The translations under genes were made by a program, and so were the position numbers. Shown here one piece after another: positions 18,353-53,556 of a stretch of DNA of 64,000 nucleotides. Position 1 is the stretch's first letter. The number at the start of each line of letters is the position of its first letter. The notes beneath the pieces are model-generated. The model ran no database searches and was not told the DNA's origin. It saw nothing but the letters and a program-made list of their open reading frames with translations. This stretch comes from an uncultured Porphyromonadaceae bacterium (GTDB lineage Bacteria; Bacteroidota; Bacteroidia; Bacteroidales; Muribaculaceae): assembly GCA_947177405.1 (NCBI GenBank), contig CAMWUJ010000002.1, positions 1-64,000 on the forward strand, given 5' to 3'.

Positions 18353-19933
18353 ATGAATTTAGATACAAAATCCCTGCCTTCCGGAACAATTCTTGACAGC
18401 GGAGAGACCAAATATCGTATAGTTGAGGTTTTAGGATCCGGAGGATTCGGCATCACCTATCTTGCTATGGGAACTATTCAGGTGAAGAATGTTACCACTG
18501 AAGCCCGATTCGCCATTAAAGAACTCTTTCCATCCGATTTTTGTGAACGAGAGGGTATTGGTGTTGTCCCCAAGATTGATAAGGTTGAGGATTTCGAACG
18601 AAGCAGGAAAGACTTCATTTCCGAAGCCCGCAAGCTCCATTCTCTCGGTGTGGGAAATGATAATATAGTGAAGGTGAATGAAGTATTTGAAGCCAACGGC
18701 ACCGCCTATTATGTGATGCAATATATCAATGGAGAGTCTCTCTCCGCTTATGTTAAGAAAAGAGGACCTCTTCCTTATAACGAGGCGATTGAACTTCTGA
18801 CACCGATATTTGATGCGGTGGAATATCTTCATAAGTCGCGTATCAATCATCTCGATATAAAGCCGGATAATATAATGCTCCATAAGTCGATAGATGGGAT
18901 TGTGCCTGTACTTATTGATTTCGGGCTGAGCGTGCATTTCAAGAAGAATGGTGACAAGACCTCACCTAAGGGAGTGCAGGGCGTTTCGCCGGGCTATTCC
19001 CCACTTGAACAATATGCCGGTATAAGGGAATTTTCGCCTCAATCCGACATCTATTCTTTGGCTGCCACTCTACTCTTTGTATTGACCGGAAAAACACCTC
19101 AAAGTGCATCAGAAATTAAGATCGCAAATGTAAAAGAACAACTCAAGAAAGTCGTTCCCGAAAGGGCATTGGATGGCTTATGCAAGGCGCTTAACAAATC
19201 ATCCGACGATCGCACTTCATCTATTTCTCTTTTTAAAGCCGACCTCGGGATAACACCTGATGGAGGCACCAGAACGCAAGTTTTAACCGGAGACAACTCT
19301 TCTTCGAAAAAATATATGCGTCCTATGATTTATGCATTAGGCGGAATCGTGGTCGCTGCAGGCATTATTCTTGGAGTGTCTAAATGTAATGGTCCTTCAA
19401 ATAAAGATGATATCCCGGCTCCCGGGATTCTTACAGATTCTTTAAAAGTAGAGGAGGATTCCGTAAATGTTAATCAAGAGTATATTGCGCCTTCCCAACC
19501 GGAAATCGTTTCTGATAAAAAGGAAGAGATAGTTGAGCCGCAAAAGCCTACGGAAGAAAAAAAGGAAACTGCTAAGGAAGATAAGAAAGATACTAAAAAG
19601 GAGGAGAATAAGGAAAAGCCTCTTAGCGATAAAGATAAGACAAAACAGCCCTCTCCAGGTAATAGCTCGGATCCGGTGTCGGCTTCCTCCACGCCGGTCA
19701 AGACTTCCGGATCAGTGTCTCTTGGTTATGGTACTTACAAAGGAGAGATGAAAAACGGAAAACCTGACGGAAAAGGTCGTATCTCATATACATCTTCACA
19801 TGCAGCCGCTCGTGGCACTTCCGTTATGGCTGATCCGGGCGACTATCTGGATGGATTATTTGCTAACGGGCAATTAGTAAGCGGAAAACTTTATGATAGT
19901 TCCGGTAATTTAAAGAAAACTATTATCCCATGA
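18353..19933 (+). CDS. Transmembrane Ser/Thr protein kinase with MORN tail
   Basis: 526 aa. Cytoplasmic kinase domain at about residues 15-300: glycine loop GSGGFG (28-33), Lys56 in FAIKE, Glu91 in ISEARKL, catalytic HLDIKPDN (Asp168), DFG at 189-191, and SPLEQYAG in place of APE. The catalytic loop is HLD rather than HRD, as in the other two kinases of the island. A membrane helix (about 324-345, GGIVVAAGIILGV) is followed by an external Lys/Glu/Pro-rich linker and a C-terminal MORN-like repeat (YKGEMKNGKPDGKGR). It heads an operon of four overlapping genes; the next starts 4 bp before its stop. Confidence 0.93.
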   Translation: MNLDTKSLPSGTILDSGETKYRIVEVLGSGGFGITYLAMGTIQVKNVTTEARFAIKELFPSDFCEREGIGVVPKIDKVEDFERSRKDFISEARKLHSLGVGNDNIVKVNEVFEANGTAYYVMQYINGESLSAYVKKRGPLPYNEAIELLTPIFDAVEYLHKSRINHLDIKPDNIMLHKSIDGIVPVLIDFGLSVHFKKNGDKTSPKGVQGVSPGYSPLEQYAGIREFSPQSDIYSLAATLLFVLTGKTPQSASEIKIANVKEQLKKVVPERALDGLCKALNKSSDDRTSSISLFKADLGITPDGGTRTQVLTGDNSSSKKYMRPMIYALGGIVVAAGIILGVSKCNGPSNKDDIPAPGILTDSLKVEEDSVNVNQEYIAPSQPEIVSDKKEEIVEPQKPTEEKKETAKEDKKDTKKEENKEKPLSDKDKTKQPSPGNSSDPVSASSTPVKTSGSVSLGYGTYKGEMKNGKPDGKGRISYTSSHAAARGTSVMADPGDYLDGLFANGQLVSGKLYDSSGNLKKTIIP

Positions 19934-21249
19934 AAAAGAAGCTTTACCCTGTAGCACTTCTTGTGCTATGCGGATCTGTAGCTATCGCGCAGTCAGATCA
20001 TGATAAAAAGAGTTCGGACCCGAAGCCCGAACCTTCTATGATTGAGGCTCCCGAAGCTGAGGAATGTTCACTACCTTTGGATACCGTGAAAACGGTTGCC
20101 TCTGACTCAATTTCAGTTAGTGAACCGGAAGATTTCCCTGTGGTTCTTCCAGATTCCATTCCTGTGAATGAGCCGGAAAGTTTCCCTGTGGTTCTTCCCG
20201 ATTCAATCCCGGTGGAAACTATTGAATCCCCGGGTGATGAAACTCCGGATAGTCTCAAGGAGATTGAACCAGAGATGACGGATGAAGATACGGTGAAGAT
20301 AATAGATGGTTATCGGATTCACATGATTAAGGAGGATGGTGTGGTTACTTATGAGGGCCTTGACCTCTTCTCCGATGAAATGAAGCAGGTGATAGACAGA
20401 GCTCTGCTTGAATATATTGAGAAATCGCTCTACAGCAAGTCTCAGGGTTCGAATGATGAAGGCGACCGCCTGAAAATCACCAAAGGAAATATAAATGACT
20501 TCAAGATAATAGACCAATCCACTCCCTTCAATGTGAGCAACGACTCCAAGGAAATGCGGGTGGAATGGCAGCATGACGGTCGATCCACAGTGGTTTCCAT
20601 CCCAATCAGCTATGAAACCCTTACTTCCGGGAATCGTTCGGAGATAGAAAATAAGTTTATTTCCAGATTGCGCGCAGGTAATCAGTCAAGAAAGTTTGTT
20701 TCCGGACCTGATATTGATAAATTGCAGGCGTATGGAGATAGCCTTTATATTCTGCCGGGAGGATTATATCGTAAGAAGGAGATAAATCGAAATACCTTCT
20801 ATCTTCCTGATTCCGATCACACACCAGTATGGAATCTTTCATATCCTCTGGAATCTGTAGCCAATCTATTCATACTTCCTTCGCCGTTATATCGGGATGT
20901 TGAGATAGACCTTACTGTGCTAAAGCATGAATATGGAGAGAAGGAGACTTTCCCCATTCGACTTGATCATTTCCTAAGCATCTGCGAGGCCGATGGATGC
21001 GTTCCCTTCTGGGGAGTGGAAAAATTCAAGGATGGTCATCTGCAGGGAGCTCTCTTCCTTTACAACTATCCCAAAGGATATGATCATGTGTTGCGTATCG
21101 AATTGGATCCTGCAAAGTTAATCTCAGGGGAGGGAAGAGTGAAAGGAACAGCCTCGCTCTTCATACCTACCAACAATATAGGCACTCTCTATCAGCCTTA
21201 TCGTAAAAAAACAGAGAAGGAGATAATAAGATATGAAAAATTTAAATAA
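19930..21249 (+). CDS. Exported hypothetical protein of the kinase operon
   Basis: 439 aa with a signal peptide (YPVALLVLCGSVAIAQS). A Pro/Asp/Ser-rich linker follows with a near-perfect internal duplication (FPVVLPDSIPV twice, then another DSIPV). The globular part (about 120-439) is unrecognised and contains repeated short strand motifs such as YILPGGLYR and FILPSPLYR. It overlaps the kinase gene by 4 bp and the next gene by 17 bp, so its production is tied to the kinase. A role as a periplasmic partner is inferred from context only. Confidence 0.75.
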   Translation: MKKKLYPVALLVLCGSVAIAQSDHDKKSSDPKPEPSMIEAPEAEECSLPLDTVKTVASDSISVSEPEDFPVVLPDSIPVNEPESFPVVLPDSIPVETIESPGDETPDSLKEIEPEMTDEDTVKIIDGYRIHMIKEDGVVTYEGLDLFSDEMKQVIDRALLEYIEKSLYSKSQGSNDEGDRLKITKGNINDFKIIDQSTPFNVSNDSKEMRVEWQHDGRSTVVSIPISYETLTSGNRSEIENKFISRLRAGNQSRKFVSGPDIDKLQAYGDSLYILPGGLYRKKEINRNTFYLPDSDHTPVWNLSYPLESVANLFILPSPLYRDVEIDLTVLKHEYGEKETFPIRLDHFLSICEADGCVPFWGVEKFKDGHLQGALFLYNYPKGYDHVLRIELDPAKLISGEGRVKGTASLFIPTNNIGTLYQPYRKKTEKEIIRYEKFK

Positions 21250-21994
21250 ATTTTTTCTTTCATCAATAATCCTTTTTTCTTTGGCCTTGCCTTCTATTTC
21301 GTCGGCTTATCCCCAGACATCTCCAACTGAAGTGAAGGAAAAGATAAAAGAGATTAAGCTTGATGAAAGATTTCTTTTCGGCGAAGGATTCAGTGAGGAT
21401 TCCGAAATGTCGGATCGAGAGGCACTGAAGGAATTGTCCATAATGGTGAATACTCTCAGGCAGGAGAATAAGTGCAATGGAGGAATCGAACTTGACGAAT
21501 TAAAAAAAATCGCATCCCGAGTGGAGTGTGTTGATGAAGGAATATATGAGGTGTGTTATTATATCCCTATAGAGACTGCATTGGGGAAAACAGTTGAGAC
21601 TCCCGTTATTTCTTCAGTGAGTAAGCCCGAGGAGCCGGAGAAAACTCCTCCTGTCGTTTCCAATCCTGTGCCGGATAATGTGAACGTGTATGTGGTGCCT
21701 TCCGAAGATCTTGATGATATGATCGAGGCTATTCTTGCTCAGGACACGTGGTATGAGATACGGACTATCCTTTCTCATCATAAAGGTCTTGGCCGACTTA
21801 AGGATAGCGGGAGAGACACTTCATTGACCAATGTGCCTTCTGACGCCAACATTCTCCTCTTCGACGACCAGGGGGGAATGACAGGTTTTCTATCACCGAA
21901 AAATGAACACGGACAGCGAACCAATTATAAAACGCGTGCCCTTGAATCCGACTCCCAAATCAATGACTACAAATTTTTATTCTGGTACAAATGA
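21233..21994 (+). CDS. Exported hypothetical protein of the kinase operon
   Basis: 253 aa with a signal peptide (FLSSIILFSLALPSISSAYP). The mature part has an N-terminal helical region (about 30-105), a Pro-rich linker, and a C-terminal domain beginning VNVYVVPSEDLDDMI and ending in an aromatic FLFWYK. No family is recognised. It overlaps the upstream gene by 17 bp and the downstream one by 4 bp, the third cistron of the kinase operon. Confidence 0.7.
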   Translation: MKNLNKFFLSSIILFSLALPSISSAYPQTSPTEVKEKIKEIKLDERFLFGEGFSEDSEMSDREALKELSIMVNTLRQENKCNGGIELDELKKIASRVECVDEGIYEVCYYIPIETALGKTVETPVISSVSKPEEPEKTPPVVSNPVPDNVNVYVVPSEDLDDMIEAILAQDTWYEIRTILSHHKGLGRLKDSGRDTSLTNVPSDANILLFDDQGGMTGFLSPKNEHGQRTNYKTRALESDSQINDYKFLFWYK

Positions 21995-22968
21995 AACTTA
22001 AAAATACTTTACTGATCTTTTTCCTTCTCTTCGCTTTTACTGTCGAAGCGGATGTGACTGTGAAGCTGGCTCCTAATTCCATCAATGCCGGCCAATTGAA
22101 AACTACCATGGAGAGTAACCTTACAAAACTCCTAACAGCACTCGATAAGGCCGGTCGAAATGGAACAACTCCTAATTTCACTGGAATTTCCATAGAGGAA
22201 GGAGCAAAGGAACATCTTCTCATTTTCTGGAAAGAAGCTGCGAATTTTATCTGTCTGAGTAACGCTTATGTCACAAATTGTCTTTATGACAGTCAAGGCT
22301 ACCAGGTACGCAAGATACGTATCAAGATGAAGCCTGTGGATAATTCATATACTGAGTCGCTTATAAGGGAACTGACTGTATCGATGAATAAGAAAGGTGT
22401 CATCACAGGAGTCCGGCCTGCTTGGGAGAATAACGAGGATATCGAAATGATTCTTGAAAATTCCAACGGACCGGTAGAGGATACACGCAGAAGAATGGAA
22501 ATTCTTAAATGGGTAGAGGATTTCCGGTGCTATTATAATGAGAAAAACCTCTCCTCATTGGAAAAGATTTTCAGTGATGACGCGTTGATCATAACCGGTA
22601 GTGTGGTGACACGTCGCAAGCAACACGGTGATTATGGTTCGGCTCTGGAGCAGAGTATAAAATATGTGAAGCAGACAAAAGAGGAGTATATAGAAAAGCT
22701 GAGAACCAAAATCTTCAAACCCAATAATAAGATCAACGTAACATTCGATCATATCACGGTGATGCGCCATAAAACAAAAGACTATATATTTGGTGTGACA
22801 TTGCATCAAGTGTGGAAAAATAATAACTACAAAGATGATGGCTGGCTCTTCCTTCTTTGGGATTTTAAAAATCCTGATGAACCGCAGATACACGTCCGCA
22901 CCTGGCAGCCGGAAGATGTGGTATCTCAACATGGCAAATTCTCATTAGATGATTTCTTTATTCCATAA
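21991..22968 (+). CDS. Exported protein with C-terminal NTF2-like domain
   Basis: 325 aa with a signal peptide (TLLIFFLLFAFTVEA). Residues about 25-165 form a domain of unknown type. Residues about 170-325 (EILKWVEDFRCYYNEK, IFSDDALIITG, GWLFLLWDFKNPDEP, VRTWQPEDV) look like an NTF2/SnoaL-type fold, and the same domain recurs at the C-terminus of the protein at 30120-31121 with many identical residues. NTF2-like domains bind small ligands or act as scaffolds; no catalytic residues can be assigned. Last cistron of the operon, ended by the terminator at 22988. Confidence 0.7.
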   Translation: MKLKNTLLIFFLLFAFTVEADVTVKLAPNSINAGQLKTTMESNLTKLLTALDKAGRNGTTPNFTGISIEEGAKEHLLIFWKEAANFICLSNAYVTNCLYDSQGYQVRKIRIKMKPVDNSYTESLIRELTVSMNKKGVITGVRPAWENNEDIEMILENSNGPVEDTRRRMEILKWVEDFRCYYNEKNLSSLEKIFSDDALIITGSVVTRRKQHGDYGSALEQSIKYVKQTKEEYIEKLRTKIFKPNNKINVTFDHITVMRHKTKDYIFGVTLHQVWKNNNYKDDGWLFLLWDFKNPDEPQIHVRTWQPEDVVSQHGKFSLDDFFIP

Positions 22969-23228: not shown

Positions 23229-23260
23229 CTTGTGAAACTTGAATAATTTATTTATCTTTG
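23229..23260 (+). promoter_or_regulatory. Probable promoter of the PEGA/WG gene
   Basis: CTTG at 23229-23232 (one mismatch to TTTG), 20-nt spacer, TATCTTTG at 23253-23260, 69 bp before the ATG at 23330. Confidence 0.5.
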
Positions 23261-23329
23261 CATCGGCTACCGTTCTCTACCACGGGCGCTTACCGAATAC
23301 TTTTTACTGAAATTCTTGAATATAAATTA

Positions 23330-25354
23330 ATGGCAAAACTGATTAAAACGTTTCTGTTCATTGTATTGCTCGGTCTGACTTTCTCCGCCAGTTCTGACTC
23401 GCTTAAAGTGGAACGTCTTGCTGCTAATCCTATGGATATAACTGCTCGAACAGCCAATGTGCGCGACCTTGACAAGGAGTTGTGTGCTCTGGTGAGGGTA
23501 TCTCTCCCTATTGAAGGATGTAAATTTGAGGGTAATGTGGTTAAGGCAGAATATGATGTGGGGGAATATCTCGTCTTCCTTGCACCCGGCACAAAGATGT
23601 TTCGTATCAAATGCCCCGGTACAGTGCCCGTTGATGTCCGTTTTAGCCAGGTGTCCGACATAGAGTCGGTCGAGTCGGGAGTGACATACACATTATATCT
23701 ATCCGGCTACGAGGATTTGATCCCAACGGATAACCGCAAGAAAGCCGATGCCGGAGGTAATTATCTGGTGCTCGATATCACTCCCAAAACTGATGTGCTG
23801 GTAAAGGTTGACGATGTGCTTCAGAAGGTTGAGAATGGACAGGCTCTCACATTTCTCCGATATGGCACCCATACCTATGATGTTCAGGCAGAAGGATATG
23901 CACCGGAGAAAGGCACCGTGACAATCGGGAAAGGCGATAGGACCGTTGTTAATGTCACACTCCGATCGGCGCGTGCAACATTCCATGTAAATTCGGAAAC
24001 TCCCGGCACCTCAATATATGTGAATGGCAAACATGTAGGCACCGACACCTATCTCGGGGAGCAACCCGCCGGCACATATCTTGTTGAGGCCTCCAAGGAG
24101 GGGTATGGTTCATTTAGTAAGACGGTGGAATTGGCGGAAGGAGAGACCACGATGCTTACTATACCGGCCTTGACTCCGATATATGGGGTCCTCAATGTCG
24201 GATATAGTCCGGTGGAATCGCAAGTCTTGATAGATGGTAAAAATGTCGGCACCAGCCCCGGTGTATTCAATGATATCACTGTAGGCCAACATACAATCTC
24301 CATCTCCAAATCAGGTTATGCCACATTCACTACCACAGTCAATATAACAGAGGGAGAGGTGGCAAATCTTTCCGGATCCCTTCAGCAGGGAGGAGGGATT
24401 ACTCAGGAATTTGTAAATAATCTACCAAAAGAGTATGAAGATTTGGGGAGCTTCTCGGAAGGCCTTGCAGGGATTAAGATTAGAGGGAAGTGGGGTTTTA
24501 TTGACAAGAGTGGAAAACTCGAAATTCCTGCTGAGTATGATAGGTGCTATGTGTTCTCAGAAGGCCTTGCGCAGGTAGGGATTGGAGGAAAATATGGCTT
24601 TATTGACAAGAACGGAAAGCTGGTTATCCATGCTAAGTATGATTACGCAGGGTCTTTCTCGGAAGGCCTTGTGCAGGTAGAGATTGGAGGGAAATATGGC
24701 TTTATTGACAAGAGCGGAAAGCTGGTTATCCAGGCTAAGTATGATTGGTGCGGAAATTTCTCGGAAGGCCTTGCAGTGGTAGAGATAGGAGGAAAAAGTG
24801 GTTTTATTGACAAGAGCGGAAAGCTCGTAATCCCAGCTAAATATGATTATTCAGACTCCTTCTCAGACGGCCTTGCAGTAGTTCAGATTGGAGAGAAAAA
24901 GGGATTTATCGACAAGAACGGTAAGCTCGTCATTTTTGCTGAGTATGAAAACTGTTCGGATTTCTCGGAAGGTCTTGCAAAAGTTTTGATTGGAGAAAAC
25001 TGGGGGTTTATCGACAAGAACGGAAAGTTCGTCATTCCTGCAGAGTATGATGTTGCAAAACCCTTCTCGGAAGGTCTTGCAGAGGTCGAGATTGGAGAAA
25101 AATGTGGCTTTATCAACAAAAACGGAAAGCTCGTCATTCCTGCAGAGTATGATGGTGCAGGACCCTTCTCGGAAGGCTTTGGATGTGTTAAGATTGGAGG
25201 GAAATATGGTTTTATCGATAAGAGTGGGAAGCTCGTAATACCTGCTGAGTATGATGGAGCATGGCAGTTCTCGGAAGGCCTTGCACTTGTGAAATTTGGA
25301 GGGAAGTGGGGTTATGTAGATAAAACCGGCCGTTCTACATTCGATTTCCGTTAA
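23330..25354 (+). CDS. Exported PEGA-domain protein with nine WG repeats
   Basis: 674 aa from the ATG at 23330 (an upstream in-frame TTG at 23258 lies inside the promoter). Signal peptide (FLFIVLLGLTFSAS), then the Bacteroidales N-terminal beta domain (about 22-145: NPMDITART, EGNVVKAEYDVGEYLVFLA). Next come PEGA-type carbohydrate-binding-like repeats (about 160-360: YAPEKGTVTIGKGDRT, GTSIYVNGKHVGTD, SQVLIDGKNVGTSPG). The C-terminus has nine WG repeats of about 34 aa (core GFIDKSGKLVIPAEYD). Near-identity of repeat DNA suggests recent expansion. Probably a periplasmic or surface binding protein; ligand unknown. Confidence 0.88.
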   Translation: MAKLIKTFLFIVLLGLTFSASSDSLKVERLAANPMDITARTANVRDLDKELCALVRVSLPIEGCKFEGNVVKAEYDVGEYLVFLAPGTKMFRIKCPGTVPVDVRFSQVSDIESVESGVTYTLYLSGYEDLIPTDNRKKADAGGNYLVLDITPKTDVLVKVDDVLQKVENGQALTFLRYGTHTYDVQAEGYAPEKGTVTIGKGDRTVVNVTLRSARATFHVNSETPGTSIYVNGKHVGTDTYLGEQPAGTYLVEASKEGYGSFSKTVELAEGETTMLTIPALTPIYGVLNVGYSPVESQVLIDGKNVGTSPGVFNDITVGQHTISISKSGYATFTTTVNITEGEVANLSGSLQQGGGITQEFVNNLPKEYEDLGSFSEGLAGIKIRGKWGFIDKSGKLEIPAEYDRCYVFSEGLAQVGIGGKYGFIDKNGKLVIHAKYDYAGSFSEGLVQVEIGGKYGFIDKSGKLVIQAKYDWCGNFSEGLAVVEIGGKSGFIDKSGKLVIPAKYDYSDSFSDGLAVVQIGEKKGFIDKNGKLVIFAEYENCSDFSEGLAKVLIGENWGFIDKNGKFVIPAEYDVAKPFSEGLAEVEIGEKCGFINKNGKLVIPAEYDGAGPFSEGFGCVKIGGKYGFIDKSGKLVIPAEYDGAWQFSEGLALVKFGGKWGYVDKTGRSTFDFR

Positions 25355-25398
25355 TAAGCAAATAAGGGATAGATAGGAGGAGGAATCTAATACAGTAA

Positions 25399-25833: not shown

Positions 25834-25858
25834 TGTCTATACAAATACTTTATTGAAA

Positions 25859-27070
25859 ATGAGACGAATCTTCATAACCATATTATCATTTGTCTCTTTC
25901 TTTCCATTCATCAGTCAAGGTCAGGAATTCAAAGTGGCGAGCTTCGATTATAATCCTTCCGATCTCACTGCCCGTGTGGGAGAATATAGTCGTGTTGATC
26001 TTGACGGTAGAAAATGTGCTATTCTAAAGATTTCGGTAGCCGACGATATAGTTGAAGCCCAAGGGAATGTGGTAGGAGATATCATAAAGAAGGGAATGGA
26101 GAAATGGATATATATAGCACATGACTCCAAACATGTGAAACTCCTTTTTGACAAGCATCATTCCCTAATGCTTAATTTCATCGACTATAATTATCCGGTG
26201 GTCTCGGAGCAGATGGTGTATGACGTAAAGTTGGAAGAGAAAGTTTCAAATGATTCCGGTGCAACTAATAAGTTATCGGTTGATCGGCCGCAAGAAACCG
26301 AACTCCTGAAGGACGCAAAAAAAGCATATGAAGAAAGAGATTTTGCTAAAGCTCTGAGACTCTTCTCAAAAATAGATAATGATAAGGAGGCACAATACTA
26401 TTTAGGGGAAATGTATTACGAGGGAGAGGGAGTTTCCAAGAATGATAAGGAAGCTGCCATCTGGTTTAGAAAAAGTGCGGATCAAGGATATGCTTTATCT
26501 CAAGCTAATCTGGGATTATTATATTTGTGTGGTTATGGGGTGGAAGAAGATTGTCAGGAAGCTATAAAATGGTTTACAAAAGCTGCTGAACAAGGAGATA
26601 TTTTGGCTCTGCGGAATTTAGGAAATATCTATTACTTCGGTGAAGATATCCCAAAAGATTATCAAGAAGCGGTAAAATGGTGGAGGCTGGGTGCAGAGAA
26701 AGGAGATCCTGATCTGCCATACCTTTTAGGAATTATGTATTATGAAGGAAATAAGATAAACAAGGATTATACAGAAGCATATAAATGGTTTCTTAAAGGA
26801 GCTGAACAGAACAATGAGTTGTGTCAATTGAGAATAGGAGTAATGTATTATAATGGCTTTGGAGTACCTGTTGATTATAAACAGGCTGCACATTGGTGGA
26901 AATTAAGTGCTGATAATGGAAATTCGAGAGCCATGTTTAATCTCGGGTCGCTTTATCTTGATGGGTTAGGTGTCAAAAAAAATGAAGCAGAAGCAGTAAA
27001 ATGGTTTAAATTATCTGCTGATCATGGCAATGAAGATGCAAAAAGAAAAATCAGAGAAATGGGGTATTAA
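25859..27070 (+). CDS. Exported beta-domain protein with Sel1 repeats
   Basis: 403 aa from the ATG at 25859 (a TTG two codons upstream is less likely). Signal peptide (ITILSFVSFFPFISQGQ), then the N-terminal beta domain (about 20-130: YNPSDLTARVGEY, EAQGNVVGDIIKKGMEKW) shared with the genes at 23330, 30120 and 31786. Sel1-like repeats follow from about 150 to the end (QYYLGEMYYEGEGVSKNDKEA and six similar units of about 36 aa). Sel1 repeats are alpha-solenoid protein-binding scaffolds. The protein is expected in the periplasm or on the surface. No partner is identified. Confidence 0.88.
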   Translation: MRRIFITILSFVSFFPFISQGQEFKVASFDYNPSDLTARVGEYSRVDLDGRKCAILKISVADDIVEAQGNVVGDIIKKGMEKWIYIAHDSKHVKLLFDKHHSLMLNFIDYNYPVVSEQMVYDVKLEEKVSNDSGATNKLSVDRPQETELLKDAKKAYEERDFAKALRLFSKIDNDKEAQYYLGEMYYEGEGVSKNDKEAAIWFRKSADQGYALSQANLGLLYLCGYGVEEDCQEAIKWFTKAAEQGDILALRNLGNIYYFGEDIPKDYQEAVKWWRLGAEKGDPDLPYLLGIMYYEGNKINKDYTEAYKWFLKGAEQNNELCQLRIGVMYYNGFGVPVDYKQAAHWWKLSADNGNSRAMFNLGSLYLDGLGVKKNEAEAVKWFKLSADHGNEDAKRKIREMGY

Positions 27071-30097: not shown

Positions 30098-30119
30098 TAA
30101 AAGACCAACTTTATTGAAA

Positions 30120-31121
30120 ATGAAACGATTCTTCATAACCATATTGTCACTTGCCTCTTTATTTCCATTCATCAGTCAAGCTCAGGAATTCAAAGTGGCA
30201 AGCTTCGATTATAATCCTTCCGATCTCACTGCTCGGGTTGGAGAATATAGTCGCGTTGATCTTGATGGTAGAAAATGTGCTCTTCTTAAAGTATCAGTTG
30301 CCGATGATATTGTTGAAGCCCAAGGAAATGTTGTTGGAGATATCATAAAGAAAGGAATGGAGAAATGGGTATACATTGCTCATGATTCGAAACATGTGAA
30401 ACTCCTTTTCGACAAGCATCATTCCCTAATGCTTAATTTCATCGACTATAATTATCCGGTGGTCTCGGAGCAGATGGTGTATGATGTGAAGTTGGAAGAG
30501 GAAAAAAATGAACAAACTAATGTTATTTCTAACACTGTTTTAAAGCCCTCAATCCAACCACACGACATATTGTCAGAAAATGATGAAGCAAGTGTTGCAG
30601 AAAAAATCGGGAGTAAAGAGAAAATATCCGGAAAAGTTGCCAGCGAGGATAATAGTATAATAATCCTTAATTGGATTGAATCTTTACGGGAACTCTATAA
30701 TAAAAAAGATTTAATGGCATTAGAAGATATTTTCAGTGACGATGCCTTAATTATTATGGGGAAAACGATGATTAGGCGTAGGCAGAATTATTTTGAATTA
30801 GAACAAACTGCTAAGAATAGATATCAATCAAAGAGTGATTTTCTGGCGAACCTTCAAAGACTTATGCGAAATAATAGTAAAATAAACGTTGAATTTGATA
30901 ATATCAGTATAAAATCGCATAAAAAGATTGATAATCTCTACGGAGTAAATCTTCATCAAAATATTATAACCTCAAATTACAAAGATTCCGGTTGGCTTTT
31001 TCTTCTTTGGGACTTCACAGATCCGGATGTGCATCAAATTATAGTGCGTCTATGGCAAACAGAGCAGGACGTTGCTCAGAACGGACTTTTCACTATTGAT
31101 GATTTAAAAATAGCTGAATGA
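30120..31121 (+). CDS. Exported beta-domain protein with NTF2-like C-terminus
   Basis: 333 aa from the ATG at 30120. Signal peptide (ITILSLASLFPFISQAQ) and N-terminal beta domain (about 20-130) are nearly identical to those of the gene at 25859, at DNA level too. After a short linker the C-terminal domain (about 175-333: ILNWIESLRELYNKK, IFSDDALIIMGKT, GWLFLLWDFTDPD) matches the NTF2-like domain ending the protein at 21991-22968, not Sel1 repeats. It is therefore a domain-swap chimera of two neighbouring gene types. Exported; function unknown. Confidence 0.83.
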   Translation: MKRFFITILSLASLFPFISQAQEFKVASFDYNPSDLTARVGEYSRVDLDGRKCALLKVSVADDIVEAQGNVVGDIIKKGMEKWVYIAHDSKHVKLLFDKHHSLMLNFIDYNYPVVSEQMVYDVKLEEEKNEQTNVISNTVLKPSIQPHDILSENDEASVAEKIGSKEKISGKVASEDNSIIILNWIESLRELYNKKDLMALEDIFSDDALIIMGKTMIRRRQNYFELEQTAKNRYQSKSDFLANLQRLMRNNSKINVEFDNISIKSHKKIDNLYGVNLHQNIITSNYKDSGWLFLLWDFTDPDVHQIIVRLWQTEQDVAQNGLFTIDDLKIAE

Positions 31122-35725: not shown

Positions 35726-36121
35726 ATGTATAAGCTGTGTCTTAATTCACGGGATGAACTCCTTGTGATTGATCTTCAGAAAATTGCCTTCTTCCAGGCC
35801 AATGGAAATTATACCCAGATGAATTATATCTCCGGAGAAAACAGACTTCTGACTCTTGGGCTCACCAAGATTGAGGAGGTGATACGCATCTCTTGGCCAA
35901 AGGGTACACCCTCTCCGTTCGTGAGACTTGGCAGAAGCTTGATCGTGAATCAAAATTATCTATCTGAAATAAGTGTGCTCCGACAGCGGCTCGTGCTTAG
36001 CGACTGGTCGGGAAATTCCCATTCTCTCACTGTGCCTAAGCCACTTCTGAAGAATTACAAGGAGCATATCTACAAAGAATACCAAGCAAAAATAAATAAG
36101 GAAAAAAATAATGGAGAATGA
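35726..36121 (+). CDS. Single-domain LytTR DNA-binding regulator
   Basis: 131 aa from the ATG at 35726; a TTG at 35690 is in frame but lacks support. The LytTR fold spans almost the whole protein: ELLVIDLQKIAFFQANGNY, FVRLGRSLIVNQNYLSEI and the C-terminal LTVPKPLLKNYKEHI. No receiver domain is present, so it is not a classical response regulator; it may read a signal through phosphorylation or protein contact. Its end overlaps the FHA gene by 11 bp, which ties it to the FHA-caspase operon. Confidence 0.85.
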   Translation: MYKLCLNSRDELLVIDLQKIAFFQANGNYTQMNYISGENRLLTLGLTKIEEVIRISWPKGTPSPFVRLGRSLIVNQNYLSEISVLRQRLVLSDWSGNSHSLTVPKPLLKNYKEHIYKEYQAKINKEKNNGE

Positions 36122-40948: not shown

Positions 40949-42571
40949 ATGAGCGATTCTAAGATGGTTTCCGGAGCTTTACCCGTGGGTACTATTGTTA
41001 AATCTGATAACGACCGATATCTTGTGGAAGAGGTGTTGGGTGCGGGTGGTTTCGGAATAACATACCGCGTCACACGGCTTTCCGACGGGAAGGTGTGTGC
41101 AATGAAAGAGTTTTTTCCTGACAAGATGTGCGAGCGTGGTGAAAATAACACCATGTCTTATTTAAAAACCAATTCCAATGCTATCGAGACGGGAATTGAT
41201 AATTTCATTACAGAAGCCGAACGCCTTAACCGTGAGAATGTGTCACATCCCAATATTGTGGAGGTGGATGAGGTGTTCGAGGCTAACAATACTGCATACT
41301 ATGTGATGGAATATATTGATGGCAAGAATCTCCGGCAGTGGGTCAAAGGTCATAAGGCCATGAGCGTTAACCAGACTCTCAGTGTGATCCGTCCGGTGCT
41401 TCAGGCCCTCTCTCTCCTTCATAAGAAAAAGCTTACTCATCTTGACATTAAGCATGAAAATATAATTCTTACTAATGAAGCCGACGGAAGTTTACGTCCT
41501 GTCCTCATTGATTTCGGGCAGTCGAAGCATTACGACAAGAAGGGGAATGCCACATCACAGCTAACGAATGCAGGATGCAGTGATGGTTTTGCCCCTCAGG
41601 AGCAGTATCAGGGACTCACGAAGTTTACTCCTCAAGCGGATGTTTATGCTGTATGCGCCACAATGCTATTTCTTCTTTCCGGACGGCAGCCTGTGAAATC
41701 GTCAGAAATGACAGAAGCTAAAATCAGGGAGATGATAGGAGGGAAGGTTTCGCAAAATGTTCTGGATGCCATCATCAAGGGTATGAAAGCTAATAAAGAT
41801 GACCGCACTCAGTCGGTGGATCAGTTGGCTTCCGATCTTGGTCTTGATATATCGGATATGGATCATGACGGAAACGTTACGCGCCTTCTCGACATCAAGC
41901 AGAAACCATCATTTGATTTCAAGAAGTTTATAAAACCACTCATTATTGCAGTGGCATGTGGAGGTGTGGTATATGGAATAATTGCCCTCGTTAATCACCA
42001 ATCCACTTCCAATAATGACATTGCGGTGGTGACTGTGGATTCAGTTACGGAGGAATACACGGATAGCGTTACAATGACTCCCGCCGGCAATCTTACTCCC
42101 GAACAGCCGATTCAGGCCGAGACTCCTTTGGCTGAAGAGCCTCAGAAAGTCAAGGTTGCCGACAATAGCAAGGATACCGAGGCCGAGAAGAAAAAGAAAG
42201 AGGAGGAAGCTAAGGCAAAGGCCGAGCAAGCAGCAAAGGAAGAAGCCAAGAAGAAAGAGGAAGCTATGAAGCAGAATATAGGAGATAATCAAACTTTGAA
42301 GCCGGAGAAACCGAAGCAAGAAACCAATGATCAGTTGTTTGCAAAAGCCAAGACAATTTCCGATCTGCAGGCGTTGGCCGACAAAGGATATGCAAAGGCT
42401 TACGCTCCGTTGGCCGAAAAATATTTCGCTGCGCGCAACTGGCATTCTGCCGACAGATATCTTAGAAAGGCAATATCTTCCGGTGTGGGAGTATCACAGG
42501 CGCGTCAGGTAGCCGACCGTCTTGATAAAATTGGATTCTATGATAATGGCGAAAATGGTGGAAAACCATAA
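40949..42571 (+). CDS. Transmembrane Ser/Thr protein kinase 2
   Basis: 540 aa. Kinase domain about 20-300: GAGGFG (31-36), Lys53 in AMKEFF, catalytic HLDIKHEN (Asp166), DFG (188-190) and the activation-loop end GFAPQEQY. One membrane helix at about 330-350 (LIIAVACGGVVYGIIALV). The extracytoplasmic part has a Thr-rich linker, a Lys/Glu/Ala coiled-coil-like stretch (about 410-445), and a C-terminal helical repeat (TISDLQALADKGYAKAYAP). It follows the PP2C gene by 13 bp and is paralogous to the next kinase. Confidence 0.93.
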   Translation: MSDSKMVSGALPVGTIVKSDNDRYLVEEVLGAGGFGITYRVTRLSDGKVCAMKEFFPDKMCERGENNTMSYLKTNSNAIETGIDNFITEAERLNRENVSHPNIVEVDEVFEANNTAYYVMEYIDGKNLRQWVKGHKAMSVNQTLSVIRPVLQALSLLHKKKLTHLDIKHENIILTNEADGSLRPVLIDFGQSKHYDKKGNATSQLTNAGCSDGFAPQEQYQGLTKFTPQADVYAVCATMLFLLSGRQPVKSSEMTEAKIREMIGGKVSQNVLDAIIKGMKANKDDRTQSVDQLASDLGLDISDMDHDGNVTRLLDIKQKPSFDFKKFIKPLIIAVACGGVVYGIIALVNHQSTSNNDIAVVTVDSVTEEYTDSVTMTPAGNLTPEQPIQAETPLAEEPQKVKVADNSKDTEAEKKKKEEEAKAKAEQAAKEEAKKKEEAMKQNIGDNQTLKPEKPKQETNDQLFAKAKTISDLQALADKGYAKAYAPLAEKYFAARNWHSADRYLRKAISSGVGVSQARQVADRLDKIGFYDNGENGGKP

Positions 42572-42605: not shown

Positions 42606-44051
42606 ATGAGTAAATCTAAGATTGTGGAAAGTGCCTTACCGGTCACGACTGTTGTGGTATCTAAAAAATATCAGTACAGGGTGGTGGAGGTGTTAGGTGC
42701 AGGGGGATTTGGTATTACATATAAAGTGAGAAGACTTCAAGATAATAGAATCCTCGCGATGAAGGAATATTTTCCGGATAAAATGTGCGAAAGAGGCCGC
42801 GACAACTCGATGTCTTTTTTCAAGACTAACGCATCTGAAATCAAGAATGGAATTGAAAATTTTATCACTGAGGCTAAACGACTAAACAGGGAGAACATTT
42901 CTCATCCTAATATTGTGGATGTTTATGAAGTGTTTGAGGCAAACGACACGGCTTATTATGTGATGGAGTATATAGATGGGAAGAATCTTCGTCAATATAT
43001 CAAGGATAATCGAAATAAGCCTATGAGTGTAGATCAGATGTTGAGCGTTATTAGGCCACTACTTCATGCTTTAACTCTTCTTCATAAGAATAAACTGACT
43101 CATCTGGACATAAAACATGATAATATAATCCTTGCAAATGAAAGGGATGGTTCTTTACGTCCTGTTTTGATTGATTTTGGACAATCTAAGCATTATGATC
43201 GGAAGGGAAATGCCACTTCAACTTTGACAAATGCCGGATGTAGTGAAGGTTTTGCACCTCCTGAACAATATCTTGGTCTTAGAACATTTACTCCTCAGGC
43301 CGATGTCTATGCTGTTTGTGCCACAATTCTTTATTTGCTTACCGCTCAACAGCCTGTGAGGTCTTCGGAAATGAGTGCTTCCAAGATTCTTGAGATGTTA
43401 GGAGATGAAGTGCCGGAAAGTATTAGGAAAGCTTTGGTGAGGGGTATGAATCCAAATTTGGTTATGAGGACGCCGAGTATCAGTAGGTTGGCACAAGAAT
43501 TAGGGATTTGTACAGTAGGTACTGACGCTGATACAAACGTTACCCGCCTTCTCAATAATCCCTTAAAGAAGAGATCTGTAAATATTGACCGTTTTTTAGA
43601 TCTTGTCAGGTCTAAGAAAGCGCCTGTCGATCAAGGAAAACTTAAGATACTTGGTGGAGTTTTAGCAGTAGCAGTTTTGATAATATTTGCTATATGGGGT
43701 ATTGGAAGTATAGTCATTAACACAAGTTCTCCTTCCCTCGGAACTAAGCTTTGGGGTAGCATTAGTGCATTGCGTAACCATATAGGTGATATCTGGATGT
43801 GGATTCTTTGTATTATAATATTGGTAGCATGCGTACAAATCACTTATAAGATTAAATGTAAGTATGGAAAATGGAAAATTCTAATAGGTGGCATATTATT
43901 TTTGTGCGGCGTTATAGGAGTTCTGGCTATGTTGGCTTCTTCTCATCAAGCTTACGTTTGGGGATTTGATATTTTTCCCCTGCTCATAATCATTGGTATA
44001 TTGGCTTTGTTAGGGGTTATTTTCGGCTCATTTGCCTCAAAGGAGAATTAA
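42606..44051 (+). CDS. Transmembrane Ser/Thr protein kinase 3
   Basis: 481 aa. Kinase domain closely similar to kinase 2 (GAGGFGITY at 31-39, Lys53, HLDIKHDN with Asp168, DFG, GFAPPEQY). The C-terminus differs: instead of an external tail it has about four membrane helices (about 345-480: LAVAVLIIFAIWGIGSIVI, WMWILCIIILVACVQI, IGGILFLCGVIGVLAML, LLIIIGILALLGVIF) with short loops. A duplicated kinase with a replaced sensor/anchor half. Both kinases keep HLD rather than HRD in the catalytic loop. Confidence 0.93.
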   Translation: MSKSKIVESALPVTTVVVSKKYQYRVVEVLGAGGFGITYKVRRLQDNRILAMKEYFPDKMCERGRDNSMSFFKTNASEIKNGIENFITEAKRLNRENISHPNIVDVYEVFEANDTAYYVMEYIDGKNLRQYIKDNRNKPMSVDQMLSVIRPLLHALTLLHKNKLTHLDIKHDNIILANERDGSLRPVLIDFGQSKHYDRKGNATSTLTNAGCSEGFAPPEQYLGLRTFTPQADVYAVCATILYLLTAQQPVRSSEMSASKILEMLGDEVPESIRKALVRGMNPNLVMRTPSISRLAQELGICTVGTDADTNVTRLLNNPLKKRSVNIDRFLDLVRSKKAPVDQGKLKILGGVLAVAVLIIFAIWGIGSIVINTSSPSLGTKLWGSISALRNHIGDIWMWILCIIILVACVQITYKIKCKYGKWKILIGGILFLCGVIGVLAMLASSHQAYVWGFDIFPLLIIIGILALLGVIFGSFASKEN

Positions 44052-44143: not shown

Positions 44144-45286
44144 ATGAGAAAACTGATATTATCTTTATTTGTTGCTTTCTTTTTTATCGCTCCGGTAGAG
44201 GGTAAAAAATATGCGTGGGAATATGATTTCAAAAGGTTGCAGAAAGAGGCAACTGCCGGTGATATGATGTCGCAATATTGGTTGGGGAAAACCTACTCTG
44301 AGGGGCGTCTTGGAGTAACTCCAGATCAGGCTAAAGCATTTGAATGGTATCTCAAGGCTGCACAACAGGGCGATGCGGATTCCCAATTGGAAGTGGCCCT
44401 GCGTTATGAAAAGGGCAATGGTACTCTCAAAAATGAAAAGGAATTTATTTATTGGCTTGAGAAATGCGCTGATAACGATGTAGATAATACAAGCACGTTC
44501 ATTGCTCGTATTAATCTTGGAAGGTTTATCGGTTTAGGCTTGAATGGTCTTGAAAAGAATCCGGAAAAGGGGATAGCTATTGTGAAAAGAGCAAGTCTTC
44601 GAAATTATCTTTCCAGTGATGAGGTCACTTTCAGAGAGGTAGCAAAACACAATATTCTTGGAGATCTTCTTATTGAAAAGGCTAACGCCACATTTAATCC
44701 GGATGATTATCTGGAAGCTGAAAAGGCCTATGGTCAATCGGTGAATGAACTCGACAAAAGGTGGGTTGAGGGATGCCGTAAAGACTTTCAGCATGCCTTG
44801 AACTCGATTGCTTTGGCTCGTCTTCTCTATAACACATATGCTGATAAGGATGATTATACTGTTATGATAGATGCTTTAGACAGATCAGCACGATGGGGAA
44901 ATCCGAATGCTAAATATGTGCTTGGTGAATTCTATTATTTCGGAGAGTATGGATTGGAAAAAGATACATCCAAAGGTTGGAAGCTCTGGTCGGAGTGTAG
45001 AAAGACTCATTCCAAAGCAGCATATATGATGGCCGAAGAATATTATAATCACCGTAATTATGAGAATGCCGTGAAATTCTTCACCACATTTGTAGAATCA
45101 GACTATCCCGAATATCCGGCCAGTGACGAGGCGAAAAGCGATGCTTATCGAAAACTCTCCACCATGTATCGTTATGGACGAGGGGTAGCAGCCGATGAAA
45201 AAAAGGCTGATGATTATCTGGAAAAGGCAGCCGCCCTCGGTGATGCTGATGCCGCTCAGATTCGAAGTTGGCTTGGAGGGATGTAA
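44144..45286 (+). CDS. Exported Sel1-repeat protein
   Basis: 380 aa with a signal peptide (LILSLFVAFFFIAPVEG). Sel1/TPR-like units run along the protein (SQYWLGKTYSEGRLGVTPDQA, SQLEVALRYEKGNGTLKNEKE, AKYVLGEFYYFGEYGLEKDT, LSTMYRYGRGVAADEKKADDY). The C-terminal unit is closely similar to that of the protein at 49656-51233, so the two are paralogs. Follows kinase 3 by 92 bp and may belong to the same operon. Expected as a periplasmic scaffold. Confidence 0.85.
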   Translation: MRKLILSLFVAFFFIAPVEGKKYAWEYDFKRLQKEATAGDMMSQYWLGKTYSEGRLGVTPDQAKAFEWYLKAAQQGDADSQLEVALRYEKGNGTLKNEKEFIYWLEKCADNDVDNTSTFIARINLGRFIGLGLNGLEKNPEKGIAIVKRASLRNYLSSDEVTFREVAKHNILGDLLIEKANATFNPDDYLEAEKAYGQSVNELDKRWVEGCRKDFQHALNSIALARLLYNTYADKDDYTVMIDALDRSARWGNPNAKYVLGEFYYFGEYGLEKDTSKGWKLWSECRKTHSKAAYMMAEEYYNHRNYENAVKFFTTFVESDYPEYPASDEAKSDAYRKLSTMYRYGRGVAADEKKADDYLEKAAALGDADAAQIRSWLGGM

Positions 45287-51335: not shown

Positions 51336-52019
51336 ATGGAGACTAAAACTATCAACTCCGTTTCCGGAGGGGAAAAGAAGGAAAATAAGAATGGGAAAGG
51401 GAAAAATGTTGCTATGGAGGGTGCTAAGGTAGCAGGAGCCGCAGTCGTAGGAGCAGGAGCTGCATTTGCCGCTTCAGCAGCTTTCTCTTCCCCTGATGAT
51501 GTCCAGGAGGAAATCGTTGCTCCAACCGATGAAGAGAATGTTGTCGGCAATGGAGAAGAGAATCAAGTGGAAGAGGAGAAACCCAAAGCTGATGCCCCGA
51601 AAGAGGAGGTGAATCCCGATGAGATAGTGATCTCTCATGAACAGGTAGAGGAGATATTAGGCCCACAGGATATCGCCGTAGTGGAGGTGGAACCGGTGGA
51701 GGGAGAACCATCAATCACTCCGGGTGAAGATGTCATAGCAGTAGTGACACCCACAGATCCTTCTGAAATCATTGATCCGGGATCCATAATTGAAATAGAT
51801 CCAACAACTATTGAAATTCCGGAAGAGAATATCGTAATGGTAGATGTTGATCCGGAGAATATTTTAGATCCCGAAGATATTATTATTGATGGTCTTCCCC
51901 AGGATCCTGGTCCCGGTGCGGAGATTCCTGAAATTGATGATCCTACATTCTTTTCCGCTGAGATTGATGATACTGCATTCGAATCTGCTGAGTATATTGC
52001 TCCGGATGACATAATCTGA
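51336..52019 (+). CDS. Ala-rich, very acidic low-complexity membrane protein (paralog 2)
   Basis: 227 aa. Same plan as the protein at 38366: basic Gly/Lys-rich N-terminus (EKKENKNGKGKN), Ala-rich hydrophobic helix (about 28-50: AGAAVVGAGAAFAASAAF), then about 175 residues dominated by Asp, Glu, Ile and Pro (EEILGPQDIAVVEVEP, VDVDPENILDPEDIIIDG). No Cys and few basic residues in the acidic part. No known family. It starts the last operon of the island, 7 bp before a Sel1 gene. Confidence 0.7.
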   Translation: METKTINSVSGGEKKENKNGKGKNVAMEGAKVAGAAVVGAGAAFAASAAFSSPDDVQEEIVAPTDEENVVGNGEENQVEEEKPKADAPKEEVNPDEIVISHEQVEEILGPQDIAVVEVEPVEGEPSITPGEDVIAVVTPTDPSEIIDPGSIIEIDPTTIEIPEENIVMVDVDPENILDPEDIIIDGLPQDPGPGAEIPEIDDPTFFSAEIDDTAFESAEYIAPDDII

Positions 52020-52026
52020 TACGGCG

Positions 52027-53556
52027 ATGAAAAAGTTATTCATAACAATAGGAATCGCTCTTATGGCAGGATCGATTCCGGCATTGGCTGCAAAGCCTGT
52101 GCAGACGAAGGCGGAGGCTATTGACAGTATAAAGAATGTAATAGCCCTCGCCGGCAAGGGGGATGCCGATGCGCAAAATCGACTTGGCACCTGGTATTAT
52201 ACCGGCAAGCATGTGGATCAGGATTACAGACAGGCATTAGAATGGTGGTCAAGGGCTGCCAAGCAAGGTCATAATGAAGCTGTCGGCAATATGGGAATAT
52301 CCTATCAATATGGACGAGGCACCGACCGTGACTCCCTGATGGCTGTGAAGCTTTATGAGAAATCTCTCAAAGGAGGGAACCCCTCCCTTTTGGAACGACA
52401 TGAAAAAATGGCTCAGAAGGGAGAGCCTTTCAGTAATATGCTTCTCAATGAAGTCTATCGGAAAGGTATAGGTGTGGAAAAAGATACGGAGAAGGCGAAC
52501 AAGTATTTGGCTGCTGTTGCTGATAAAGGTGACTTGATTGCACAGCGAGATCTCGCTCTGATCTATCTCAATGCCAAGAATCCTGCTGCTGCCGCTCCCT
52601 GGTTGAAGCGCGGTGCGGATGCAGGCAACAAGACATGCCGCTACTATTATGGTCAACTTCTGCTCAATGGTAACGGTGTGAAGCAGGATAAGAAGGCCGG
52701 TGCTAACTATATGCTTCTTGCCGCCCGCGACACATTCCCACAGGCGATGTATTATCTCGGCAATCTTTATATGGATGGTGAGGGACTTGCTAAAAGTCCG
52801 GAACAGGCTGTGGAATGGTATCAGAAAGGAGCCGCCAACGGTGAAAAACGCGCCATGTGGAATCTCAGCCGTTGCTATCGCGAGGGTGTCGGCACTCCGG
52901 TGAATTATTTCAAATCCGCTTATTGGCTTGCGGAAGTGGGAGCAGATAATAATTTTGTGGAGGTGAAGAAATTATTACGTGATACAATCCCCAATTCTCC
53001 TTTTGTGAAATACCTTGAAGCTTTCAGTAAGCTCGACAGTAATTCTTTTCCCGAAGCCATGAAGGATTTCAAGGCTATGGAGAAAGCAGTTTCAACAGAT
53101 TCCAAGATTATGCAGGGCTTTATTCTTATGGCTGATTCATACAATAAGAAGAATTACAAGAAAGGGTTAAAGCTATTAGAGGAAGCTGCGAAAGAGAATC
53201 CTATGGCGGAATATTTTCTTGGGGCTTTGTATGAAAACGGACAAGGAGTAGATCGCGACATGAAGAAAGCTGCTGAATATTATCAGAAGGCTGCCGACCG
53301 CGGGTTCGGGCTTGCAATGGGGGCACTCGGCGACATGTATTATGAAGGTAGAGGGGTAGATACTGATTTTGCCAAGGCTTGTGAACTTTATGAGCAAGCT
53401 TATACAATCGGAGAACTTTACGAAGGCCCGGCCGGTCGTTATGCCACTTGCCTTGCAGAAGGGAAGGGAGTGACTCAGAATAAAGAGAAAGCAGAAAAGG
53501 TGAATAAGATCAATCATAAGAAAAAATTTCAGGCTCTCCTGGATCTTATGAAGTGA
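52027..53556 (+). CDS. Exported Sel1-repeat protein (about ten repeats)
   Basis: 509 aa with a signal peptide (LFITIGIALMAGSIPALAA). Well-conserved Sel1 repeats of 36 aa cover most of the protein (AQNRLGTWYYTGKHVDQDY, AVGNMGISYQYGRGTDRDS, AMYYLGNLYMDGEGLAKSPEQ, AMGALGDMYYEGRGVDTDF). It starts 7 bp after the acidic membrane protein, so the two are co-translated, mirroring the acidic protein and Sel1 pairing of the larger operon. Likely a periplasmic scaffold. Confidence 0.88.
   Translation: MKKLFITIGIALMAGSIPALAAKPVQTKAEAIDSIKNVIALAGKGDADAQNRLGTWYYTGKHVDQDYRQALEWWSRAAKQGHNEAVGNMGISYQYGRGTDRDSLMAVKLYEKSLKGGNPSLLERHEKMAQKGEPFSNMLLNEVYRKGIGVEKDTEKANKYLAAVADKGDLIAQRDLALIYLNAKNPAAAAPWLKRGADAGNKTCRYYYGQLLLNGNGVKQDKKAGANYMLLAARDTFPQAMYYLGNLYMDGEGLAKSPEQAVEWYQKGAANGEKRAMWNLSRCYREGVGTPVNYFKSAYWLAEVGADNNFVEVKKLLRDTIPNSPFVKYLEAFSKLDSNSFPEAMKDFKAMEKAVSTDSKIMQGFILMADSYNKKNYKKGLKLLEEAAKENPMAEYFLGALYENGQGVDRDMKKAAEYYQKAADRGFGLAMGALGDMYYEGRGVDTDFAKACELYEQAYTIGELYEGPAGRYATCLAEGKGVTQNKEKAEKVNKINHKKKFQALLDLMK

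Follow-up and report, generated by a model that had tools for sequence, protein, structure and literature searches.

A conserved gene cassette for Ser/Thr kinases, a PP2C phosphatase, FHA proteins and an exported caspase in Muribaculaceae and other Bacteroidota

Results

The locus and its core genes

The window analysed here is the whole stretch of bases 1-64000 of contig 2 (CAMWUJ010000002.1) in the draft genome of an uncultured member of the Muribaculaceae (GCA_947177405.1, 3.27 Mb in 142 contigs). It contains a group of signalling genes whose core comprises a LytTR protein, two FHA proteins (FHA1 and FHA2), exported caspases, a PP2C phosphatase, Ser/Thr kinases and an acidic protein with one transmembrane (TM) segment, here called ACID. 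These core genes form one conserved cassette. Twenty window proteins were scanned against Pfam and domains were called at the Pfam cut-offs. An earlier sequence-only reading of this DNA had listed three Ser/Thr kinases, one PP2C, two FHA proteins, two caspase-like proteases and one LytTR factor, and all of these exceed their cut-offs (Table 1), which for Peptidase_C14 is 21.4 bits. The single LytTR gene starts at 35690, or at 35726 with an ATG start. The whole genome has 15 Pkinase matches, three inside the window and 12 outside it. K1b, K1c, acid1 and acid2 are without a Pfam match at an E-value of 0.01, and neither ACID nor K1b has a significant relative of solved structure (best E-values 0.0061 and 0.88, both read as chance).

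Co-occurrence and order of the core genes

Among 198 genomes of the family, FHA2 has matches in 43, caspase 2 in 61 and an FHA1 profile in 53, some of the last being FHA-only matches to proteins of about 500 amino acids. The caspase set was restricted to 49 genomes with a small open reading frame (ORF) and an E-value of at most 1e-17; 12 genomes with weak or large-protein matches were dropped. FHA1 is present in 48 of these 49 genomes where 13.1 are expected (Fisher p 5e-39), FHA1 and FHA2 occur together in 41 genomes (11.5 expected, p 4e-29), and the caspase and FHA2 in 38 (10.6 expected, p 2e-25). The p values serve as a guide only, given the non-independence of the genomes and an FHA1 profile derived from the cassettes themselves. 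The distribution is patchy, the cassette being found in about a quarter of the family.

Gene neighbourhoods (loci of all sets are numbered L below) were taken from 60 regions of family genomes that surround a caspase or FHA2 match, from 11 order-level stretches chosen as the best matches of an order search, and from at least 80 named loci of a contig scan, several of which duplicate the family set. In the order search 155 of 393 genomes match the caspase at 1e-10, mostly through large caspases. Removal of identical caspases left 110 small-caspase loci, many of them on contigs that end early. FHA1, FHA2, PP2C, a kinase and ACID were counted as partners when they lay on the same strand within 8 kb. 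At least three of these five partners accompany the caspase at 80 of the 110 loci (6, 14, 10, 15, 21 and 44 loci have from none to five partners, respectively). ACID is near 92 of the small caspases, FHA2 near 79, FHA1 near 74, a kinase near 70, PP2C near 68 and LytTR near 59. For large caspases, 17 of 19 loci have no partners, one has a kinase and one (L202) has all five. Twelve further loci of this genome, selected for their kinases, and the window flanks match only the kinase and Sel1 models.

Directional adjacency was counted over 137 distinct loci. FHA2 precedes PP2C in 64 loci and LytTR precedes FHA1 in 50, the reverse order being found in none. The remaining pairs also have a preferred order: ACID-FHA2 51:3, FHA1-caspase 31:4, PP2C-kinase 32:7 and caspase-FHA2 29:3. 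The identity matrices of the proteins are correlated across 63 cassettes (caspase-PP2C 0.72, caspase-FHA2 0.78, PP2C-FHA2 0.79) and, for caspase-FHA1, across 49 (0.76). Species phylogeny contributes to these values, none of which was matched in 2000 permutations.

The sequence-only reading had proposed that related genomes be searched for these genes and their order, scattered genes being the sign of an accumulation. Within the family and outside it the genes keep both their co-occurrence and their order, and they are not scattered. Chance accumulation of independent genes, which the IS1595 transposase within the region, the genome-wide family of exported modules and the separation of two searched flank genes in genomes of the same genus would favour, is contradicted for the core by its conserved order, co-occurrence and co-divergence. 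As an account of the locus we find it barely credible; it may apply to the exported proteins encoded at 23258-35202.

One order that recurs in the family is LytTR-FHA1-caspase-ACID-FHA2-PP2C-kinase-Sel1. In Bacteroides caecigallinarum ET21 (L156) the genes run LytTR-FHA1-kinase-ACIDs-caspase-FHA2-PP2C-kinases. The order in Rhabdobacter roseus (L188) and in Spirosoma (L199, L201) is FHA1-ACID-FHA2-PP2C-caspase-kinase, an extra gene preceding the kinase in L188 and L199. The Saprospiraceae locus L202 includes LytTR-FHA1-ACID-FHA2-PP2C-kinase adjoining a caspase of 402 amino acids. The caspase of Ferruginibacter (L176) is on the opposite strand, and in the neighbourhood from Phocaeicola coprophilus (L140) PP2C was not recognised. 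The closest named caspase among the matches listed is from Paramuribaculum sp. HAN018.

The system, carried by gut as well as environmental Bacteroidota, is patchy inside the family and sparse outside Bacteroidales. Of 395 phylum genomes searched with the FHA1 profile, 12 give a match at 1e-15. They comprise the window's own genome, one from the order, five from the class and five from elsewhere in the phylum, these last five with partial matches to proteins of about 500-850 amino acids. An FHA2-type gene is nearby in six of the ten phylum FHA1 loci examined. Two further clusters (L109 on contig 11 of genome G118, L110 on contig 33 of G131) are rich in FHA, PP2C and kinase genes without a recognised caspase, and are possibly a related system with another output.

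Spacing and transcription

The genes at 18353-22968 overlap by 4, 17 and 4 bp. LytTR and FHA1 overlap as well, FHA1 and caspase 1 are 1 bp apart if the internal ATG at 36757 is the start, and 46 bp separate the two caspases. Gaps inside 38366-45286 are 51, 8, 13, 34 and 92 bp, and acid2 is followed after 7 bp by its paired Sel1 gene. The range of 1-50 bp given earlier was therefore nearly right, exceeded by the 92-bp and 51-bp gaps. Between caspase 2 and acid1 lie 114 bp with a TAnnTTTG sequence, which we take to resemble a Bacteroides promoter. Because of this gap the spacing does not directly demonstrate a single transcript, and the claim that it directly shows co-expression does not hold. 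The four or so operons and two separate cores (kinase, PP2C, zinc-ribbon FHA and acidic protein; LytTR, FHA and caspase) that had been described consist of real genes, and both gene sets are conserved; most of these genes belong instead to one cassette, which is contiguous in many relatives.

Among 61 upstream regions the 8-mer ATTTGTAT was considered as a LytTR site. It occurs in eight of them and once in a background of up to 400, and was not accepted; the remaining common 8-mers consist wholly or almost wholly of A/T runs.

Active sites, export and topology

Both caspases belong to Peptidase C14, scoring over the cut-off and keeping the His-Cys dyad; in an alignment of relatives His97 is kept in 51 of 51 sequences and Cys134 in 50 of 51. 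Among proteins of solved structure, the caspase profile finds metacaspases, legumains and caspases. By a hydropathy rule rather than a trained predictor, 111 of 112 proteins have a hydrophobic stretch N-terminal to the caspase fold.

The catalytic and phosphopeptide-site residues are those of Hanks-type kinase, PP2C and FHA signalling. PP2C keeps the metal-site residues Asp22, Asp42, Asp202 and Asp239 in 36 of 36 sequences, and the kinases keep Lys53, His164-x-Asp166, Asn171 and DFG in 44 of 44. At the phosphopeptide sites, FHA1 has G8 in 39 of 39 and S25 in 35 of 39, and FHA2 has R163 in 42, S181 in 41 and N207 in 42 of 45. The four Cys of the FHA1 zinc ribbon are invariant in 24 sequences.

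Of 137 cassette kinases, 112 have a TM-like segment C-terminal to residue 270. Accessory Pfam domains were scanned in a chosen subset of 70 kinases. Among the 25 of 44 families listed, FGE-sulfatase is found in nine kinases, Lcl_C in six, PEGA and Sel1 in three each, WG and BACON in two each, and LRR_5, FKBP and TonB_C in one each.

ACID has an N-terminal tail, a Gly/Ala-rich TM segment, an acidic stretch rich in Pro and, towards the C-terminus, a conserved part containing DxDxDxxxD, in which D217 and D221 are invariant in 15 aligned sequences. Loops of some Bacteroides forms read like EF-hands by eye, and a distant member (L114) has an EF-hand_5 match below the cut-off. The outer part of ACID may bind calcium. 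ACID-type proteins from outside the Muribaculaceae share by eye a stretch like MSFxxAFAxARxEVGxGGxFxWxG (L156:6119-7417, L156:9022-9951, L188:7231-8442, L201:7513-8541 and L176:14002-15024); the carriers in L156, L201 and L176 have no Pfam match over the cut-off.

A threonine motif shared by ACID tails and kinases

From 146 acidic one-TM candidates, 116 near core genes and with a Gly/Ala-rich TM segment were accepted as ACID, and 30 were dropped. The pattern [DEN]xTx[YFLIVM] occurs 89 times in the N-terminal tails of 56 of the 116, against 14.2 after shuffling. Among 93 representatives there are 76 motifs in 47 tails against 12.4, a number reached in none of 2000 shuffles. A serine control is at the shuffled level (8 against 8.9), and the outer part of these proteins shows a depletion of the motif (88 against 119.8). 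Its density is 20.9 per 1000 residues in ACID tails and 2.3 in 89 other N-terminal segments.

The pattern was applied unchanged to the juxtamembrane segments of 60 kinases representing 71, those of K2, K3 and L156 having been inspected beforehand. It occurs 51 times in 43 segments against 13.3 shuffled, while the serine control gives 13 against 17.6. In the window, K2 and K3 fit the motif (NVTRLL; K3 by eye) and K1 does so partly. In the ACIDs of Muribaculaceae type a TxxI threonine is conserved in at least 90% of 15 sequences.

FHA self-peptides of the GarA, OdhI and DgcB type have Glu at -2 and hydrophobic residues at +2 and +3, as described in part of one source (PMC6733907), and a docking motif of GarA is given as ETTS in part of another (PMC5448819). 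A tail threonine motif of this type is found in the ACID set, and loosely in the window ACIDs. These patterns suggest that ACID and the kinases may be phosphorylated and then read by FHA1 and FHA2.

Displaced and loosely tied genes

The genes for K1b, K1c and the NTF2-like protein lie directly 3' of a core kinase in four loci (L053, L055, L125, L128) and just upstream of LytTR in a fifth (L142). The operon at 18353-22968 is therefore probably a displaced part of the cassette, with K1 probably as its head. Kinase, K1b and K1c follow one another in five of five loci having K1b, and K1c precedes the NTF2-like gene in four of four. Pairs of an ACID-type and a Sel1 gene like that at 51336-53556 recur downstream of the cassettes L053, L054, L066 and L072. 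The IS1595 transposase at the end of the core operon might have caused the split arrangement.

Membership is weaker and the tie looser for the exported proteins at 23258-35202. The sequence-only reading had described at least eight exported scaffold proteins built from the same few modules, and WG, PEGA and Sel1 repeats are indeed present; the number of exported proteins rests on signal peptides judged by eye. These module proteins are not a dedicated set, because their N-terminal module, which is without a Pfam match in the proteins scanned, has 16 matches genome-wide, 11 of them outside the window. Within 23258-33141 it is joined to Sel1, PEGA/WG or NTF2-like domains, and module genes also follow the cassettes L124, L125, L128 and L142.

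Elsewhere in this genome two kinases of the same subfamily (L011, L012) lack the other core genes. Six divergent kinases of 425-535 amino acids (L013 and L016-L020, on contigs 53, 97, 29, 21, 4 and 74) each adjoin an ORF of 183-217 amino acids; the small ORFs are alike by eye, and the pairs form a second paralogous family of kinase plus partner. On contig 55 (L021, 198-6058), ORFs that are presumably TerD-like and vWA-like lie beside one ORF of 519 amino acids and one of 492 amino acids that coincides with a Pkinase match.

Table 1. Genes and features of the window
Feature	Position	Strand	Evidence and remarks
K1, Ser/Thr kinase	18353..19933	+	Pkinase 109.3 bits; TM-like segment; MORN below cut-off
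K1b, exported (by eye), family unknown	19930..21249	+	No Pfam match
K1c, exported (by eye), family unknown	21233..21994	+	No Pfam match; conserved K1b neighbour
NTF1, exported, weak NTF2-like (Cds6_C)	21991..22968	+	19.2 bits, below cut-off of 27
Exported PEGA and WG repeat protein	23258..25354	+	Pfam; loose tie to cassette
Exported module and Sel1 protein	25853..27070	+	Module family genome-wide
ORF of 520 amino acids	27354-28916		Homologues elsewhere in genome (43% and 64% identity); not in the sequence-only reading
Exported module and NTF2-like protein	30114..31121	+	Module family genome-wide
Exported protein, two module copies and Sel1	31786..33141	+	Module family genome-wide
Exported WG-repeat protein	34087..35202	+	Pfam; putative cassette link only
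LytTR DNA-binding domain, no receiver	35726..36121	+	LytTR 31.8 bits; first core gene
FHA1: FHA, hydrophobic segments (by eye), C-terminal zinc ribbon	36111..36755	+	FHA 43 bits
Caspase 1, N-terminal export signal	36757..37482	+	Peptidase_C14 74.3 bits; homologue match begins at this start
Caspase 2, N-terminal export signal	37529..38251	+	Peptidase_C14 86.7 bits; 68% identical to caspase 1
acid1 (ACID): short N-tail, Gly/Ala-rich TM, acidic outer part	38366..39211	+	Alignment of 15
FHA2: zinc ribbons and FHA	39263..40006	+	FHA 25.9 bits
PP2C phosphatase	40015..40935	+	PP2C_2 53.7 bits
K2, transmembrane Ser/Thr kinase	40949..42571	+	Pkinase 115.6 bits; juxtamembrane NVTRLL
K3, transmembrane Ser/Thr kinase	42606..44051	+	Pkinase 121.4 bits; NVTRLL behind kinase domain
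Exported Sel1-repeat protein	44144..45286	+	Sel1 89.3 bits; last gene of core operon
IS1595 transposase	45393-46298		Adjoins core operon end; not in the sequence-only reading
acid2, second ACID-type protein	51336..52019	+	No Pfam match
Exported Sel1-repeat protein paired with acid2	52027..53556	+	Sequence; Sel1-type neighbours in relatives

Discussion

A proposed mechanism and its alternatives

We propose that the cassette encodes a conserved trans-envelope Ser/Thr phosphosignalling system with the exported caspase as its dedicated protease output, a proposal whose chances we judge evenly balanced. The kinases would sense envelope or surface ligands through their outer domains, and would phosphorylate their own juxtamembrane threonines and the ACID tail. 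FHA1 and FHA2 would bridge phosphorylated kinases and ACID into clusters, and PP2C would reset the phosphorylated state. The periplasmic caspase would be turned on or off by this clustering, or by a change in ACID's outer part that depends on calcium, ACID acting by proximity or as a substrate or inhibitor. LytTR may set the expression of the cassette. Envelope sensing and released proteolysis, as suggested earlier, would both be part of this scheme; the term phospho-relay that went with them is wrong for Ser/Thr kinases with FHA readers.

In favour of this proposal are the joint occurrence and directional order of the core genes, their correlated divergence, the intact active sites, the export signal of the caspases, the TM-like segments of the kinases and the threonine motif with its serine controls. 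Several observations weigh against it. The threonine pattern was chosen after inspection of the ACID tails, its strict form is absent from 46 of the 93 tail representatives, and in place of the acidic form acid1 and acid2 carry just TxxI close to the N-terminus. The topology of the cassette proteins rests on hydropathy. ACID and the caspase are adjacent in either order (38:32 loci), six of the 110 small-caspase loci are without any of the five partners, and no 9-mer or 10-mer that might mark a LytTR regulon is shared by at least eight of the 61 upstream regions.

The same wiring might be non-lethal, the caspase trimming exported repeat proteins under kinase control during maturation, shedding or envelope remodelling. 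We regard this as possible but doubtful. It agrees with the N-terminal signal of the caspase, with exported Sel1 proteins at 27 of the 110 cassette loci and with flanking genes that are mostly housekeeping-like (110 of 423 flank proteins were sampled and cut by hand to 77 for the scan; 25 of 114 families listed), whereas most genes for exported module proteins lie elsewhere in the genome.

Abortive infection or defence against competitors, in which envelope damage or phage contact would trip the kinases and the caspase would kill the cell, seems rather improbable to us. The patchy presence, the several kinases with varied outer domains and the caspase effectors known from conflict systems (part of PMC7159879) would suit such a role. 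However, FHA1, FHA2 and LytTR have no PADLOC match, the caspases match only the generic PADLOC caspase model over part of its length, and among the 77 flank proteins the 25 of 62 PADLOC families listed are all DNA-methylase models, with one protein each. The caspase also has no match in 50,697 phage records. A mobile origin was considered and not adopted; plasmid records give 24 matches (at most 28.4% identity among the 20 listed) and viral contigs 19 (at most 32%).

No empty insertion site was seen with the flank genes at 16717-18030 and 55191-56891 in genomes of the same genus. The first is present in 17 of 31 such genomes, counting that of the window; of the 16 remaining carriers, 12 have the transporter at 55191-56891 as well. 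The pair is split between contigs in every case but G594; there a paralogue of 39% identity is found at a distance of about 6.6 kb, in a different relative orientation.

A bolder form of the proposed signalling system is an inside-out death switch, which would be new in category and which we consider unlikely. Cytoplasmic Ser/Thr kinases would gate the periplasmic caspase by way of FHA-driven clustering of the one-TM adaptor, whose outer domain has a calcium loop. This would be an apoptosome-like arrangement across a bacterial membrane, which Bacteroidales, Cytophagales and Saprospiraceae would have in common through either descent or transfer.

Comparison with known systems

The GarA/OdhI and DgcB systems resemble the cassette in their N-terminal tail threonine, the residues around it and the FHA reader (part of PMC6733907). 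There the tail and the FHA domain are on the same protein; here the motif is on ACID and the kinases, the FHA domains are on two other proteins, and the binding is predicted. In the KKP prophage module, which also works by phosphorylation, a PP2C gene is followed by two kinase genes as at 40015-44051, but its kinases are fused to FHA and CSD and are encoded by 900-1300 bp (part of PMC11341870). The cassette has membrane kinases without FHA or CSD, separate FHA genes and a caspase. KKP membership was rejected, as K2 (1623 bp) and K3 (1446 bp) have no FHA or CSD match. K1 and K3 also fall below the NCBIfam cut-offs for PASTA kinases (PknB_PASTA, 450 bits; scores 117.6 and 106.7) and for the MADS antiphage kinase MAD6 (460 bits; 98.9 and 107.3).

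Conflict systems such as VMAP and iSTAND place a bacterial caspase-like effector under a regulatory module, in Bacteroidetes among others, but with vWA-MoxR, STAND or GTPase modules, as far as the parts consulted describe them (PMC7159879, PMC8195603); here the caspase is exported. Such a ternary system was rejected, the 20 window proteins scanned having no vWA or MoxR Pfam match; STAND and GTPase modules gave none in the same proteins. Type VI secretion genes, which would mark the kinase-phosphatase-FHA regulation of that system, were not recognised in them either, the genome not having been searched for any.

An archaeal operon has a zinc ribbon-FHA fusion beside a calcineurin-like phosphatase, together with vWA proteins; the phosphatase is of another class, and kinase and caspase are unmentioned in the passage concerned (PMC7016017). 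In a metacaspase survey, bacterial caspase homologues occur in operons, with more than one per operon in Bacteroidetes, and section 13 of that survey names no kinase-FHA-PP2C association (PMC3501461).

The sequence-only reading knew of no described system with this gene set, and we likewise found no description of the kinase-PP2C-FHA-ACID-caspase set in the PubMed Central literature under CC0, CC BY or CC BY-SA licences. The domains and the general logic of Hanks kinase, PP2C and FHA are already known. What appears to be new is their conserved link, by way of ACID, to an exported caspase. If the proposed signalling system is real, Bacteroidota, gut commensals included, would use phosphorylated threonine as a code to control, across the inner membrane, a caspase that is outside the cytoplasm. 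Orphan Hanks kinases of Bacteroidota would gain a substrate, a reader and an output, and the system would bear on how kinase and caspase signalling became combined.

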